From the NCBI RefSeq assembly GCF_016278385.1, contig NZ_JADQBY010000020.1, positions 1 through 64,000 on the forward strand: DNA of 64,000 nucleotides. The letters run 5' to 3'. Origin of the DNA: Methanolobus sp. (GTDB lineage Archaea; Halobacteriota; Methanosarcinia; Methanosarcinales; Methanosarcinaceae). Under the pieces are notes generated by a model. The model was not told the DNA's origin. It worked only from the letters and a program-made list of their open reading frames with translations, and did no database searches. Positions 21,327 through 63,449 of the stretch are shown piece after piece. How positions within the stretch are numbered: the stretch's first letter is position 1; the number at the start of each line of letters is the position of its first letter. A program made the position numbers and the translations under genes.

Positions 21327-21707
21327 ATGGATAAAAAACAGAAAACTGTTCTTGCAGTTGTTTTCATTGCCATCGTTGGTTTTGTAGGTCTCTGGAATGT
21401 GGACCTGTCTCAGGGTTATCCTATGATATCGGAGCTGTCAGATAATTCCGATAAATACGTGGGACATGATATTAACACTATGGGGACTATAAAGAACGGA
21501 ACTCTGGAGATATCCACAGATGGTACTTCTTTTGTACTGCAGGATCTTGAAGATTCCTCTTTTGAACTGGATGTTGAATACGTAGGTTCTATTCCGGCTA
21601 ATCTTGTGGAAGGGCAAAGTATTAGCATTAGTGGTAAAATGGTGTCAGAAAATATGGTTGAGGCTAACCAGATAGTAGTTAGTTGTCCTTCTAAATATTC
21701 GGAGTGA
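21327..21707 (+). CDS. ccmE: CcmE-family heme chaperone, CxxxY type
   Basis: A 126-residue periplasm-facing heme chaperone of cytochrome c maturation system I. It has one N-terminal membrane anchor (about 7-25) and an OB-fold domain with FVLQDLEDSSFELDVEYVGSIP and VEGQSISISGKM. The heme-attachment site is C120-P-S-K-Y124, the CxxxY form described for archaea and some sulfate reducers, in place of the usual HxxxY. GAGGTAC lies before the ATG. It is preceded by the ccmD-like frame and followed after 12 bases by a polyprenyl synthase. Confidence 0.85.
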   Translation: MDKKQKTVLAVVFIAIVGFVGLWNVDLSQGYPMISELSDNSDKYVGHDINTMGTIKNGTLEISTDGTSFVLQDLEDSSFELDVEYVGSIPANLVEGQSISISGKMVSENMVEANQIVVSCPSKYSE

Positions 21708-21719
21708 GCAGGCGGAAAT

Positions 21720-22589
21720 ATGATTCAAATAGAAGATCTGGCGGAATACCAGCTTATAAAAGCTTCTAAGGATGAGATGGTCTGTTCCATGGATGATCGC
21801 TCTCTGATGAAAAAGATGCTAATACATATCTGCAGTTCTGGTGGGAAAAATATCCGTCCTGTTATGCTTGTATTATGTACCGAGATGTGCGGTGGTAATT
21901 CAGAAAGTAGTATCAATGCTGCATTGGCTATTGAGTTTATTCATTCGGCTTCTCTTATACATGATGATGTGCTGGATGGAGGTCTTGTACGCAGGGGTGT
22001 GGAATCCGCACATAAGAAATATGGCATTCCTGCAGCTATTCTCTGCGGGGATTTTTTGATATCCAAGGCTATATCTCTGATATCTGGATATGGTAATAAT
22101 GCTGTAAATGAATTTGGCAGGGCTGGAATGTATATGGCAGAAGGTGAAACGATTGACATTTCCAGTGTGGACGAGGAGTTCAGGGAAAGAAACTATTTTG
22201 AGTGCATCAGTAAGAAAACCGGTTCTCTTTTTGCAGCAAGTGCTGCAATCGGTGCATATGTCGCAGAAGCTGATGAAGGGACTGCCCTGAAACTAAGGGC
22301 TTTTGGGGAAAATGTTGGTAATGCATACCAGATAGTTGATGATCTGCTTGAGTATCTTAACAAACTTGAAGATAAAAGTTCTACTTATGAATCCGTCACG
22401 TTACCTCTTATTTATAGGAAGGTAATGGGGCATGATGATGCTGTTGAAAAGACTGTACAGCAGGTATGTATCTGCGTTCAGAATGCAAAAGATATCCTTG
22501 CTTATTTCCCCTCATCAGAAGCAAAGGATAAACTGGAGCTTGTAACTGATCTTATTACAGTTGATATGCTCCCTGGGGATATATTTTAA
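21720..22589 (+). CDS. Polyprenyl diphosphate synthase family protein (divergent)
   Basis: A 289-residue trans-prenyltransferase. The first aspartate motif is canonical (LIHDDVLDGGLVRRG, DDxxD). The second is DDLLE (QIVDDLLEYL) rather than DDxxD, and the following loop lacks the usual GKP lysine. The residues four and five before the first motif are Ser and Ala; small side chains there usually allow long products (C25 or more). In Methanosarcinaceae such a chain could serve methanophenazine, but the main chain synthase may lie elsewhere. Its position between ccmE and a radical SAM gene is unusual. Product not determinable here. Confidence 0.85.
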   Translation: MIQIEDLAEYQLIKASKDEMVCSMDDRSLMKKMLIHICSSGGKNIRPVMLVLCTEMCGGNSESSINAALAIEFIHSASLIHDDVLDGGLVRRGVESAHKKYGIPAAILCGDFLISKAISLISGYGNNAVNEFGRAGMYMAEGETIDISSVDEEFRERNYFECISKKTGSLFAASAAIGAYVAEADEGTALKLRAFGENVGNAYQIVDDLLEYLNKLEDKSSTYESVTLPLIYRKVMGHDDAVEKTVQQVCICVQNAKDILAYFPSSEAKDKLELVTDLITVDMLPGDIF

Positions 22590-22614
22590 TGTTATTTAAT
22601 TGTCAGGTGACTTC

Positions 22615-23805
22615 ATGAGGGTTTATGATAAATCAGTAGTTAAAGTAAATGCAAGCACTGAGGGCGGAAAAGTAGTTCTTGATGCAGAAGGTCCGTTAGC
22701 TCCTGTTGCAAAACCAATTTTGAAAAGGATCAACAAGATCTTCCTGGAAGAAAAACCGATCTATGCAGATGAGGAGAATATAATTTTCTCCACATGGGCT
22801 CCTCCTATGCCTGGTGAGGTATTCAATAGGATGATCAGTGCGCAGGTTGCTTCTATTTTAAAGAAGAGGGTGCCTGATCAGTTCTCGATAGGTATTACCA
22901 CACACTGCCCCTATGATTGTATCCACTGTGGTGCGGCTGGTATTGTGGCAGATCCTATTGTTACTTATGATGAGGTCAATAGCGCCATACAGCAGGCAAT
23001 CGATCTGGGTTCTTACTATATAGCCTTCGATGGTGGAGAGACTCTGCTCAGAAAGGATCTTGAGCAAATGGTGGCAAATGTGGATAAGACTCGTGCGGTA
23101 GCTGCATGTTTCACATCAGGGTTTGGTTTAACTGAGCAAAGGGCCAGGGATTTGAAGGCAGCAGGTCTTTTTGCTGCACACATGAGCCTTGACAGTCCAG
23201 ATGAGAAAGAACATGATCGTGTAAGGGGACGTGAAGGTGCTTTCAAGAACACTGTGGTTGGTATAGAGCACATGGTGAATGCGGGTATTCTTGCTGATCT
23301 TTTTGTGGTAGTGTCTCCTGATAATATAGATGATCTTGATCGTTTCTACAATTTTGCAGTGGATATGGGTATGCAGGAGATGTCTATATATGAGATCATA
23401 GCTGTTGGACGTTGGATGGAGCATGAGGATGAAGTCATTACCTCTAAGGATGTTGATCGCCTTGGCAAGTTCCAGAGTTCAATGAACAAAAAAGAAGATG
23501 GTCCAAGGGTCACTTCATTCCCCAATTTCATGGGTCCTGATCAGTTCGGTTGCTTTGCAGGCAGGAGATGGATGCATGCAACAGCTGGTGGCGATATTCT
23601 TCCATGTGCATATACTCCTCTTTCATTTGGAAATATTCGCGAGGAAAAGCTTGCTGCAATATGGGCCAGGATGGGTCAGCATGAAGCATACAAATGTTCT
23701 GCTGAATACTGTATGATGCGCAACCCTGAATTCAGGAATAATTATATTCATACTATTCCAGAAGGAACCTCACTTCCGCTCAGGCTTGATAAATCTATGC
23801 ATTGA
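22615..23805 (+). CDS. Radical SAM/SPASM protein of unknown substrate
   Basis: A 396-residue radical SAM enzyme with an extra N-terminal domain (about 1-90), cluster ligands C98-x3-C102-x2-C105 (THCPYDCIHCGAA), AFDGGETLLR in the SAM-binding position, and C-terminal cysteines (FGCFAGRR, LPCAYTP, KCSAEYCM) suggesting a SPASM-type auxiliary cluster. It lacks the N-terminal features I expect of AhbC (12,18-didecarboxysiroheme deacetylase), so I do not assign that role. ATG 22615 follows AGGTGA. It probably belongs to the ccmE-prenyl synthase transcript. Possible roles are methanophenazine or modified-heme synthesis; both are inference. Confidence 0.8.
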   Translation: MRVYDKSVVKVNASTEGGKVVLDAEGPLAPVAKPILKRINKIFLEEKPIYADEENIIFSTWAPPMPGEVFNRMISAQVASILKKRVPDQFSIGITTHCPYDCIHCGAAGIVADPIVTYDEVNSAIQQAIDLGSYYIAFDGGETLLRKDLEQMVANVDKTRAVAACFTSGFGLTEQRARDLKAAGLFAAHMSLDSPDEKEHDRVRGREGAFKNTVVGIEHMVNAGILADLFVVVSPDNIDDLDRFYNFAVDMGMQEMSIYEIIAVGRWMEHEDEVITSKDVDRLGKFQSSMNKKEDGPRVTSFPNFMGPDQFGCFAGRRWMHATAGGDILPCAYTPLSFGNIREEKLAAIWARMGQHEAYKCSAEYCMMRNPEFRNNYIHTIPEGTSLPLRLDKSMH

Positions 23806-60614: not shown

Positions 60615-61247
60615 TTATGCATCTGAATAAGCAATTTTCGCTCTTGCCATGCCCGTTTCCATGTCAAATCTTTCTGTTACGTATTCCCGGGAATTCCCAT
60701 GTCCATGAAGTATTATTTCTACAAGGTCATGAGGCTCATCTATATCCGTACTTAATAGAAAAGAATCATAAACATATACTGAACATTTCCGATCATTTGC
60801 TATATTGCAGTGGTTAAGGAAACTGGAGCCATAATATTTTACGTGGAAATTGGAAGGATCTTTTACAAAAATAATGTTGGTACCTCCTCCTTTCCCCGGG
60901 ACAATCACGACATCTTCTGTTTTGGATATTATTTCCTTTATGTGTTCTGCTCTAACAAGTGGGAGATCTGCCATAATTATCAATATGGGTTTCTGTTCAT
61001 GGCTAAGGTATTCATTAATAGCTTCATTAAGATCATGTTCGTTAAGCACGACCGTTGCTTGAAGATCCTTTGGTACGCCGTTGTCTGGAGTTGTAAGTAT
61101 GTCAATCTCCTTAACTCCTGCTTCCTGGAGACTACTGACAACGTCTCTTAGCATGAGTTCTACAAATTCTTCCCGTTCTTCAAGCGTAAGTGCGGGTGAA
61201 AGCCTTGACTTGGCGTTTTTCTTTTTATAAGGGATCAATGCCTTCAT
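60615..61247 (-). CDS. cofC: 2-phospho-L-lactate guanylyltransferase CofC
   Basis: A 210-residue nucleotidyltransferase activating 2-phospholactate (or a related acid) with GTP in coenzyme F420 synthesis. The start MKALIPYKKKNAKSRLSPAL contains the nucleotide-binding Lys/Arg block; ILIIMADLPLVRAEHI and VVIVPGKGGGTNIIFV are typical CofC motifs. ATG 61247 shares a base with the cofH stop, so both are co-translated. Confidence 0.92.
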   Translation of the reverse strand: MKALIPYKKKNAKSRLSPALTLEEREEFVELMLRDVVSSLQEAGVKEIDILTTPDNGVPKDLQATVVLNEHDLNEAINEYLSHEQKPILIIMADLPLVRAEHIKEIISKTEDVVIVPGKGGGTNIIFVKDPSNFHVKYYGSSFLNHCNIANDRKCSVYVYDSFLLSTDIDEPHDLVEIILHGHGNSREYVTERFDMETGMARAKIAYSDA

Positions 61248-62323
61248 TATACTGCCTCGTAAAGTGCATTTCTCTGTTTTGGTGTTCTGCTTGATTGGTT
61301 TATTATCCATTCAATCTCGCTTGCAGGAGTATGTTCTCCATTTGTTCCTCCAGAAGCAACTGTTATTTTGTCTTCCATAAGAGTTCCACCAAGGTCATTA
61401 GCTCCGCAGAACAATGCAACCTGTGCCAGCTTCTTTCCAAGCTTCACCCAGGGTGCCTGTATATTATCTATGTGTTTATGTAATATTATTCTTGATAAGG
61501 CCTGCAACTGGAGATCATCAATACCTGTGGTCATGAATTTTCCACCTTGCATCATTTCTTCTCCGATCCTGTTATTATACGGCATAAAAGGCATTGGTAT
61601 GAGTTCGGTGAATCCGCCTGTTCGCTGCTGTATGTCGCGAATAGTAAAGATGTGTTCCAGTCTTTCCTCAACCGTTTCAACATGACCGTACATTATAGTT
61701 GAGTTTGTCCTAAGGCCTGTATTATGTGAAGCTTCAATTGTGTCTATCCACTGTTGCCTTGTCAGTTTTCCGGGGCATATTATTTCTCGGACACGGTCCA
61801 CAAGTATCTCTGCAGATGTTCCGGTTAAAGTGCCTACACCACATTCCTTCAATGTGCTGAAAGCTTCATCCAGTGGAATATTATCCATGCCAGCAGCATA
61901 AAATACTTCCATGGGGGAAAGTGCATGTATGTTCATTGCAGGATAATTGGAGCTTATGGCATCAAATATCTCAGTATAGTAATCCATGTTGAGCTGGGGG
62001 ATGTAGCCTCCCTGGACACATACCTCTATGGCTCCTGCATTTTGCGCTTTGTCAACTTCTTTAATTACATCCTCTGTAGAAAGAATGTAACCTTTATTAT
62101 CTTTGAAGGCACAAAATCCACAGTTTCCTGCACACATGTTTGTGAGGTAGATGTTACGGTTAACAACATATGTGACATCATCTCCTACTGCATCATAACG
62201 CAGATCATTTGCAAGAGTGAAAAGTTCAAAGGGATTTGCATTCATTAAGAAAATTGCTTCATCTTTGCAGATTTCTCCCTTGTATGCACTTTCAATAATA
62301 TCGTCAGTAATAGTAGAACCCAT
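61247..62323 (-). CDS. cofH: FO synthase subunit 2 (CofH), copy 1
   Basis: A 358-residue radical SAM enzyme that transfers a tyrosine-derived fragment to the ribityl-diaminouracil to make the FO precursor. Cluster ligands are C64-x3-C68-x2-C71 (NMCAGNCGFCAFK). VCVQGGYIPQL and the ALSPMEVFYAA and LTGTSAEIL segments are typical. ATG 62323 follows GAGGAAAG that overlaps the stop of the next cofH; an in-frame start at 62338 is less likely. Confidence 0.9.
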   Translation of the reverse strand: MGSTITDDIIESAYKGEICKDEAIFLMNANPFELFTLANDLRYDAVGDDVTYVVNRNIYLTNMCAGNCGFCAFKDNKGYILSTEDVIKEVDKAQNAGAIEVCVQGGYIPQLNMDYYTEIFDAISSNYPAMNIHALSPMEVFYAAGMDNIPLDEAFSTLKECGVGTLTGTSAEILVDRVREIICPGKLTRQQWIDTIEASHNTGLRTNSTIMYGHVETVEERLEHIFTIRDIQQRTGGFTELIPMPFMPYNNRIGEEMMQGGKFMTTGIDDLQLQALSRIILHKHIDNIQAPWVKLGKKLAQVALFCGANDLGGTLMEDKITVASGGTNGEHTPASEIEWIINQSSRTPKQRNALYEAV

Positions 62324-62330
62324 TCTTTCC

Positions 62331-63449
62331 TCAGGCAATTTTGAGTTTCATTTGTTCATGGATGCCGCTGAGGATTGGTTTATACGTGGTGTTCCTCTGA
62401 AGTGGTTTCCTTCCTGATGAATTGATGAACCATTCAAGTTCCTGTGCGGACATGAACTGGCCATTTGTTGAACCGGCTGAACTGGATATCTTTTCTTCCA
62501 TAAGTGTCCCGCCAAGGTCATTGACACCGCAGAATAGTGCAACTTGTGCGAGTTTCTTTCCAAGTTTAACCCAGCTTGCCTGAATGTTCTCTATGTGTGT
62601 GTTAAGTATTATGCGTGCAAGTGCATACAATTGCAGATCCTGTATGCCAGGTGTGGCATATTTTCCGACCTTTATCATTTCGTCACCAATTTTGTTATTG
62701 TATGGCATAAAGGTCAATGGTACAAATTCAAGGAACCCGCCTGTCTTTTTCTGAATGTCCCTGATGAGCATTATGTGGTCGATACGTTCCTCGATGGTTT
62801 CAATATGCCCATACATGATTGTTGCTGTGGTGTTAATTCCTGCCTGGTGTGCCTGGCTAATAACATCTATCCATTCGCTAGTTTTGAGCTTGTTGGGGCA
62901 GATTATATCTCTGACCCTGTCGGAGAGGATCTCAGCAGCCGTTCCTGGCATTGTGTCAAGGCCTGCTTCCTTTAGGCACATAAGGGCTTCACCAACAGTT
63001 ATTCCGCTTTTCTTTGCAGCATGGTATACTTCCATGGGTGAAAATGCATGTGTGTGGATGTGTGGAAACTCAGTTTTTACTGCTTTTATTATGCCTGTGT
63101 AAAAGTCGATGTTTACATCCGGGAGTAATCCTCCCTGAATACAGACTTCTGTGGCTCCAAGGCTTTCCGCTTCTTTCACTTTTTCAAGTATCTGCGGGAT
63201 ATCTAATATGTAGCCTGTATTATCCTTGAATGCACAGAAACCACAGGTTCCAATGCAGCGATTTGTAAAATTAATGTTACGATTAACCACGTAGGTTACA
63301 GTATCTCCTACTGTTTCATAGCGCAACCTGTCGGCAAGTTCAAAAAGCTTGAACGGAGGTATTTCCAGCAGAAAGAGAGCGTCTTCCTTTGTGATCTTAC
63401 CTTCGTAGGCACGTTCTATGATCTCCTCTGGGATATTAGTAGGGTCCAT
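62331..63449 (-). CDS. cofH: FO synthase subunit 2 (CofH), copy 2
   Basis: A 372-residue paralogue of the preceding gene, 7 bases upstream of it in the operon. Ligands C65-x3-C69-x2-C72 (NRCIGTCGFCAFK) and the VCIQGGLLPDV, AFSPMEVYHAA and MPGTAAEIL blocks align throughout, and both appear functional. Tandem cofH genes are known in Methanosarcinaceae; one may be specialised or act as a heteromer. Confidence 0.9.
   Translation of the reverse strand: MDPTNIPEEIIERAYEGKITKEDALFLLEIPPFKLFELADRLRYETVGDTVTYVVNRNINFTNRCIGTCGFCAFKDNTGYILDIPQILEKVKEAESLGATEVCIQGGLLPDVNIDFYTGIIKAVKTEFPHIHTHAFSPMEVYHAAKKSGITVGEALMCLKEAGLDTMPGTAAEILSDRVRDIICPNKLKTSEWIDVISQAHQAGINTTATIMYGHIETIEERIDHIMLIRDIQKKTGGFLEFVPLTFMPYNNKIGDEMIKVGKYATPGIQDLQLYALARIILNTHIENIQASWVKLGKKLAQVALFCGVNDLGGTLMEEKISSSAGSTNGQFMSAQELEWFINSSGRKPLQRNTTYKPILSGIHEQMKLKIA

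Follow-up and report, generated by a model that had tools for sequence, protein, structure and literature searches.

The question raised by this locus is what a radical SAM (S-adenosylmethionine) protein does between the heme genes and the ATP synthase genes of a Methanolobus genome. The locus lies in a 64,000-nucleotide stretch of Methanolobus sp. DNA (contig NZ_JADQBY010000020.1, positions 1 to 64,000), referred to here as the window, in which ccmE, a polyprenyl diphosphate synthase gene and the gene for radical SAM protein A run in one direction on the plus strand, separated by 12 and 10 nt. We propose that radical SAM A belongs to a guild consisting of radical SAM proteins A, B and C, a MoaA-like radical SAM protein (D), a membrane prenyltransferase of the UbiA family and a geranylgeranyl-reductase-like flavoprotein, joined in most Methanosarcinia by a C25 synthase. 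The guild probably makes methanophenazine in Methanosarcinia, or a close analogue of it in other lineages; we infer the pathway assignment and every reaction in it from gene anatomy, orthology, linkage and distribution.

Methanophenazine is a membrane electron carrier in the respiratory chain of methanogens with cytochromes, and it has a 2,3-dihydropentaprenyl ether. The biosynthesis of methanophenazine has been described as not deciphered (PMC8546582), and the genes suggested for it include UbiX/UbiD/AcoX (PMC5852551), Ubi-like genes that were raised in cultures performing direct interspecies electron transfer (PMC6315138), and PhzF, whose domain is not generally present among methanophenazine producers (PMC5244752). 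No Phz enzyme was noticed among the guild genes. A search of the open-access literature, with preprints and most subscription journals outside its scope, turned up neither a published pathway nor a named role for radical SAM A, and no account of the proposed gene set.

The features of radical SAM A are as follows.

22615 to 23805, plus strand: radical SAM/SPASM protein A, 396 aa (PF04055 66 bits, PF13186 31.7 bits).
22615 to 22870, plus strand: conserved N-terminal domain, predicted to form a three-strand meander and a helix, then a second helix.
22906 to 22929, plus strand: CxxxCxxC radical SAM [4Fe-4S] motif (C103, C107, C110), conserved without exception in the 59 family rows.
23551 to 23712, plus strand: reduced SPASM region with auxiliary cysteines C318, C336 and C371, all three invariant in the same 59 rows.

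The ATG at 22615 is probably the start, rather than the TTG at 22600 that opens the reading frame (401 aa), since AGGTGA precedes the ATG and the shorter protein fits the orthologs better. The PF04055 and PF13186 matches are above their gathering scores and, together with the CxxxCxxC motif and the C-terminal auxiliary cysteines, place the protein among the radical SAM/SPASM enzymes. An earlier reading of the DNA, made without database searches (the sequence-only reading), had pointed to an N-terminal domain of about 90 residues and had remarked that the protein does not look like AhbC. The domain is real and is conserved in the paralogs, with the signature G31, S64, P68, P69, P71, F75 and R77 (numbered from the TTG at 22600), and the second point was confirmed by a TIGR04546 (AhbC) score of 71.4 bits against a cut-off of 650. 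Radical SAM A also falls below the equivalog cut-offs of the other tetrapyrrole enzymes (AhbD 117.6/500, NirJ2 113.6/500, NirJ1 70.9/650) and of the maturases (PqqE 96.9/381.35, mycofactocin 63.2/265, SkfB model 45.8/300). Its AlphaFold2 model (mean confidence, pLDDT, 82.8) matches SkfB with a Z of 26.2 and a root-mean-square deviation of 3.9 over 297 aligned residues; SuiB, PqqE, BlsE and MoaA are further structural matches, and the matches listed mostly start at residue 69 or beyond. Enzymes of the AhbC, AhbD, NirJ and PqqE type are the nearest profiles and folds, sharing the radical SAM core and the SPASM-like C-terminus, and radical SAM A differs from them in its own N-terminal domain and in having only three invariant auxiliary cysteines. 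In MoaA, a three-cysteine auxiliary cluster leaves an open iron site for the substrate, and by analogy the three-cysteine cluster of A, B and C suggests such a site in these proteins.

The source genome encodes two full-length paralogs of radical SAM A, B (40%) and C (35%), both with the N-terminal domain, and a UbiA gene and the geranylgeranyl-reductase-like gene lie upstream of B. An IQ-TREE tree was built from 61 rows, of which 59 belong to the A/B/C family and the remaining two are AhbD and D; the family is split from the window AhbD and from D at 99/96 support. The tree also includes genes from compact clusters outside Methanosarcinia, whose radical SAM genes are numbered rSAM1 to rSAM4. 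Within Methanosarcinia, A and B form a sister pair (100/97), as rSAM1 and rSAM3 do among the cluster genes (100/99), and rSAM2 is the ortholog of C (100/99). One-to-one orthology of A with rSAM1 or of A with rSAM3 was rejected for both clades by approximately unbiased (AU) tests on the A pairings. Each lineage therefore has two A/B-type genes, one C-type gene and one D-type gene, and the rejected pairings together with the sister pairs mean that the A/B-type pair either arose separately in each lineage or was homogenised there.

Presence of the A/B/C family was scored at E <= 1e-40 in a phylum sample of 294 genomes, where 68 were positive: 53 Methanosarcinia with three copies each and 15 genomes in six other families. 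The remaining 226 lack the family, so that wide occurrence in archaea without methanophenazine, the pattern to which the sequence-only reading had said its proposal would be vulnerable, was not seen. Among 237 Methanosarcinia the family was found in 197, and the 40 without it comprise 6 of 6 genomes of family f34, 33 of family f36 and one 57%-complete genome of family f2. In the phylum of one further record carrying the family (L063), 398 genomes gave full-length matches solely in that record's own genome; in the other 31 genomes with matches, the query is covered from residue 82 or later and most of the matching proteins are of about 700 aa.

The family was then compared with MqnE, an enzyme of the futalosine (Mqn) menaquinone pathway, in a panel of 56 hand-chosen genomes, 32 of them family-positive (24 Methanosarcinia and 8 others) and 24 negative, with MqnE called by TIGR03700 above its cut-off. 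MqnE was found in 1/32 family-positive and in 23/24 family-negative genomes. The family-negative genome without it is the 57%-complete one, and the family-positive genome with it (G082) owes its status to one B-like gene; this gene, carried by a 12-kb contig, falls with a sequence from f35 in the tree and is possibly misbinned. Family f36 is probably Methanoperedenaceae, as judged from its many large genomes with the futalosine enzyme and from the literature on enrichments, which are reported with menaquinone genes and without methanophenazine (PMC5244752); f34 is probably the ethane-oxidising group, and family f3 probably the Methanothrix group. With lineage physiology taken from the literature or inferred in this way, the guild is present in lineages with methanophenazine-type carriers and absent from menaquinone lineages. 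The sequence-only reading had suggested a part in methanophenazine synthesis, and this inverse distribution supports it.

The partners of the family follow the same profile to different degrees. In the 56-genome panel, the guild UbiA was found in 24/24 positive Methanosarcinia, in 0/24 negatives and in 0/8 of the other positives, 6 of which belong to lineages whose cluster has a divergent UbiA. The reductase, at a score of at least 193 bits, was found in 23/24 positive Methanosarcinia, 6/8 other positives and 0/24 negatives. The gene order UbiA-reductase-B was seen in 6/6 Methanosarcinaceae loci read and also in G367, and UbiA adjoins the reductase in 5/5 f2 genomes. D was scored at E <= 1e-25 in a panel of 25 genomes (16 family-positive, 9 negative); it was found in 13/16 family-positive genomes, and 8/9 negatives gave no match, with a weak one (94.6 bits) in G025. 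The C25 synthase is the least faithful member of the guild, with 18/24 positive Methanosarcinia in the 56-genome panel scoring at least 180 bits.

In the window, the synthase stands directly before radical SAM A.

21720 to 22589, plus strand: all-trans polyprenyl diphosphate synthase (PF00348 178 bits; NF040627 330.8 bits; 3ipi 292 bits).
21963 to 21977, plus strand: first aspartate-rich motif, DDVLD.
22338 to 22352, plus strand: second aspartate-rich motif, DDLLE, of the DDxxE form present in nearly all orthologs read.

The best of 16 NCBIfam models for this protein is NF040627, geranylfarnesyl diphosphate synthase, and the runner-up scores 157.5 bits. The combination of DDxxD and DDxxE motifs is that of geranylfarnesyl diphosphate synthases, and the closest solved chain, 3ipi, has DDILE at the second position. 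The sequence-only reading had called the synthase divergent because of its DDLLE. This was not borne out: DDLLE, DDILE, DDVLE and DDLEE all occur among the orthologs, and DDxxD appears in lower-scoring general prenyl synthases. The form is common to nearly all orthologs and to 3ipi, so DDLLE marks the family and was rejected as an anomaly. Methanosarcina mazei MM_0789 was reportedly identified by Ogawa in 2010 as the geranylfarnesyl diphosphate synthase that makes the C25 tail of methanophenazine (work cited in PMC3017947 and PMC8546582). The window synthase, which shares with MM_0789 the best family model and both aspartate motifs including DDxxE, is its apparent ortholog and is predicted to make the same C25 tail. 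The position is shared too: in Methanosarcina-like genomes, as in the window, a radical SAM A gene and the A1Ao ATP synthase are the neighbours of the synthase. A geranylfarnesyl synthase homolog has also been reported in Methylarchaeales (PMC9478090). In a small-genome member of the Methanosarcinaceae (G376, L135:6148-7029), the synthase gene is broken by an in-frame TAG, which is either a pyrrolysine codon or the mark of a broken gene.

The arrangement around the locus was examined by counting neighbours at 23 loci, out of 24 supplied, in which a script recognised radical SAM A (L084 returned no match). The synthase is directly upstream of radical SAM A in 21/23 loci and CcmE is adjacent in 14/23, two of these being short pieces: one at a locus end (L036) and one of 64 aa in a Methanosarcina-like genome (L033). 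The stable unit is the synthase with the radical SAM gene, and CcmE is an optional neighbour outside the guild. Loci without CcmE include one in a Methanosarcina-like genome (G162), two in small genomes (G376 and G386) and three in f3. In a f2 genome (G191, L056:8015-9607), radical SAM A stands directly beside ccmE and the synthase is gone. The proximity of the synthase to these genes is already published, as ccmE (MA4149) of M. acetivorans is in a putative operon with geranylfarnesyl diphosphate synthase (PMC9084895), and in the Methanohalophilus mahii genome the synthase has heme genes and the ATP synthase in its vicinity (PMC3017947); the radical SAM protein is the new part.

The CcmE features of the window are as follows.

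21327 to 21707, plus strand: ccmE, cytochrome c heme chaperone of the archaeal CXXXY type (PF03100 51 bits, gathering score 24.6).
21684 to 21698, plus strand: CXXXY heme-binding motif C-P-S-K-Y with Cys120, at the C-terminal end of CcmE (motif described in PMC9084895).

With a CcmE domain in which CXXXY replaces HXXXY, the protein is of the archaeal type, and no difference was seen from the archaeal Ccm machinery as represented by MA4149, the motif and the synthase neighbour being alike. The 64-aa remnant in L033 (G226) adjoins an intact synthase and radical SAM A, and truncated ccmE genes like it have been reported from some Methanosarcina (PMC9084895). Upstream of ccmE the heme operon diverges, its nearest gene being AhbD (TIGR04545 595.6 bits, cut-off 500), and an A1Ao ATP synthase operon, whose open reading frames were recognised by eye, lies downstream of radical SAM A. 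The sequence-only reading had described the three genes as closely spaced and co-directional opposite the heme operon, which holds at 21327 to 23805, and had offered as one alternative that together they could make a prenylated heme. In a broader form of this idea, the product made with CcmE would be a heme that is prenylated or modified in some other way. The 12-nt gap to the synthase, the divergent heme operon and the fact that AhbD, a heme b synthase, is the nearest NCBIfam profile to radical SAM A (though at 117.6 bits against 500) all speak for this idea. However, 9/23 loci keep radical SAM A without CcmE, the window AhbD already scores as the heme b synthase, and the inverse pattern with MqnE would not be predicted from a heme role. 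Co-occurrence with ccmE had been named as a sign of support; it proved to be a variable association, and the A/B/C family is also absent from the lineage that we take to be Methanoperedens, which is cytochrome-rich. A heme or CcmE function was therefore rejected as very improbable, given the variable CcmE linkage and the inverse MqnE pattern.

Outside Methanosarcinia, the guild genes are found in compact clusters. Scanning genomes with the cluster UbiA as query yielded nine loci in named records, seven in Methanocellales-type metagenome-assembled genomes (MAGs; including Met33H, filed under Methanosarcinales), one in a record filed as Bathyarchaeota and one in Ca. Methanohalarchaeum thermophilum. 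MqnE was above its cut-off in 0/9 of these genomes. Methanohalarchaeum, Met12 and their relatives have diverged forms of UbiA, of the reductase and of the four radical SAM genes in one or two such clusters. In Met12 (G006) seven consecutive genes are present, with rSAM2, rSAM3 and rSAM4 on one strand and the reductase, rSAM1, UbiA and an NMT1-like gene on the other; Methanohalarchaeum has two groups, NMT1-UbiA-rSAM1 and rSAM2-rSAM3-rSAM4, and the reductase lies close by. The NMT1/THI5-like gene precedes the UbiA-rSAM1 part at every locus that contains this part in full (L038-L046, L058-L066). The closest solved relative of its product is yeast THI5 (E 6.5e-13), its AlphaFold2 model is poor (mean pLDDT 56.7), and it may be an enzyme of the cytosol that provides an aromatic or pyrimidine-like precursor. 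It was rejected as a universal guild member for Methanosarcinia, as strong matches in the 25-genome panel were confined to f8, f12 and f14 genomes.

Met12 bears directly on another explanation, that the radical SAM enzymes leave the carrier alone and act instead on some protein or peptide partner of the complexes linked to methanophenazine (HdrDE, Vht, Fpo, Rnf), which they would mature as SPASM enzymes mature peptides, and share the distribution of the carrier for that reason. The closest folds and solved relatives of radical SAM A are largely peptide maturases (SkfB and SuiB, beside PqqE, BlsE and MoaA), as this would predict. Met12 has been reported without Mcr, Hdr-linked bifurcation, the Fpo complex and HyaC/VhtC, and with a multiheme cytochrome and Rnf, in the available portion of its genome paper (PMC11176372), yet it retains all four radical SAM genes. 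The guild is thus retained there without methanogenesis, which speaks for synthesis of a membrane carrier and against maturation of HdrDE or Fpo. The radical SAM genes also keep company with UbiA, a polyprenyl reductase and a prenyl synthase, and no small precursor-peptide gene was noticed in the compact clusters, where no search aimed at one was made. We consider the maturation explanation improbable.

Several observations weigh against methanophenazine synthesis by the guild. The window synthase, at 330.8 bits, is under the curated 600-bit cut-off of NF040627, a difference from the MM_0789 family; this cut-off is reached in 1 of the 56 panel genomes, where the synthase of G162 passes. No recognisable synthase was found in 6/24 positive Methanosarcinia of that panel (all five f2 genomes and G329), and the tail length or the carrier may differ in such lineages; an MqnE-positive family, f17, does have a synthase. 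In the 25-genome panel, D was not found in three family-positive genomes, G367 (67% complete), G294 and G149. The Fisher p of 1.8e-13 for the family against MqnE overstates the evidence, because few independent switches lie behind the profiles (f34, part of f36 and perhaps f17) and the counts are clumped by ancestry; the panel was also picked with family presence already known. Finally, the assignment of the MqnE-positive families to Methanoperedens and the ethane oxidisers is presumptive.

The clustered lineages add two further points of this kind: no recognisable C25 synthase was found in the clustered members outside Methanosarcinia, and their NMT1/THI5-like gene has no strong counterpart among the Methanosarcinia of the 25-genome panel. 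Both also favour the view that the clustered version in Methanonatronarchaeia and Methanocellales-type MAGs makes a different redox lipid, so that common genes mean common chemistry only, as does the separate duplication of A/B and rSAM1/rSAM3 indicated by the AU tests. Against it stand the orthology of C with rSAM2 and the presence in both lineages of D, a reductase and a UbiA. A different lipid in the clustered lineages is unlikely on balance, though a serious contender.

The five f2 panel genomes lack the C25 synthase and retain UbiA and the reductase, and the f2 carrier may have another tail. In an f27 genome (G149, L041:8708-11295), a lone long-branched family member is beside a BchE/HpnJ-like B12-binding radical SAM gene; no MqnE above cut-off, no UbiA or reductase ortholog and no D were found in this genome.

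If the guild makes methanophenazine, the steps could be divided as follows. The synthase would make the C25 tail, UbiA would couple the tail to the phenazine headgroup, and the geranylgeranyl-reductase-like flavoprotein would saturate the one reduced isoprene unit; a regiospecific reductase of M. acetivorans is said to have been published. The four radical SAM enzymes (A to D) would make or modify the phenazine headgroup, replacing the bacterial Phz enzymes. A and B, as close relatives duplicated separately in two lineages, may carry out two chemically alike steps, speculatively the formation of two carbon-nitrogen bonds or two decarboxylations. The radical SAM enzymes could instead act on the isoprenoid tail or on membrane lipids rather than on the aromatic head, given their prenyl synthase and polyprenyl reductase neighbours and the existence of radical SAM lipid enzymes, one of which, GDGT-MAS, matches the A model at a Z of about 19. 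However, the methanophenazine tail requires only chain synthesis and one reduction, steps already covered by the synthase and the reductase, which leaves nothing for four radical SAM enzymes; the family is also missing in MqnE-positive relatives that presumably have archaeal lipids too. We regard a role in tail or lipid modification as a poor prospect.

On our reading, methanophenazine synthesis by the guild would resemble the futalosine pathway in outline, in which an aromatic headgroup is made by radical SAM enzymes and prenylated by a member of the UbiA family; the difference is that MqnE is not above its cut-off in 31/32 family-positive panel genomes. Mpz10 transfers a C5 unit onto carbon, whereas methanophenazine has an ether-linked C25 unit. 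The likeness of Mpz10 to the guild UbiA is that Mpz10 is a UbiA-like enzyme of the membrane with a phenazine as its prenyl acceptor (PMC4044012).

We tentatively extend this to a fuller scheme, which we hold at somewhat short of an even chance. The phenazine head would be built by four radical SAM enzymes along a pathway with no relation to the bacterial Phz enzymes, in which the A/B twin would perform two equivalent steps, either forming bonds or removing carboxyl groups. This pathway, of ancient origin and still compactly clustered there, would give a membrane redox lipid to Methanonatronarchaeia and to Met12-type non-methanogenic serpentinite archaea, and it would have been swapped for the menaquinone pathway in MqnE-positive Methanoperedens-like lineages.

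Elsewhere in the window, two tandem CofH-type (F420 biosynthesis) paralogs are encoded on the minus strand (61247-62338 and 62331-63449; recognised by eye and by TIGR03700 matches), followed by a CofC-like gene (60615-61310). Two CofH-type matches of similar score are also present in G162, G157 and G032, and one in f3 genomes. Membership of the tandem cofH genes in the guild was not supported, as the f3 genomes show a single full-length CofH-type match.

The analysis strengthens the idea of a methanophenazine role and extends it to a set of genes open to testing, and the ideas of a divergent synthase and of a heme function fall. The genes concerned are few (four for radical SAM enzymes, with those for UbiA, the reductase and the synthase); they track the carrier by profile and linkage and can therefore be tested one at a time in Methanosarcina, which is tractable. 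The guild also provides a gene test for which archaea use methanophenazine. Its presence in Met12-type serpentinite archaea suggests that these organisms keep a membrane redox lipid, a point that the available portion of their genome paper (PMC11176372) does not discuss.

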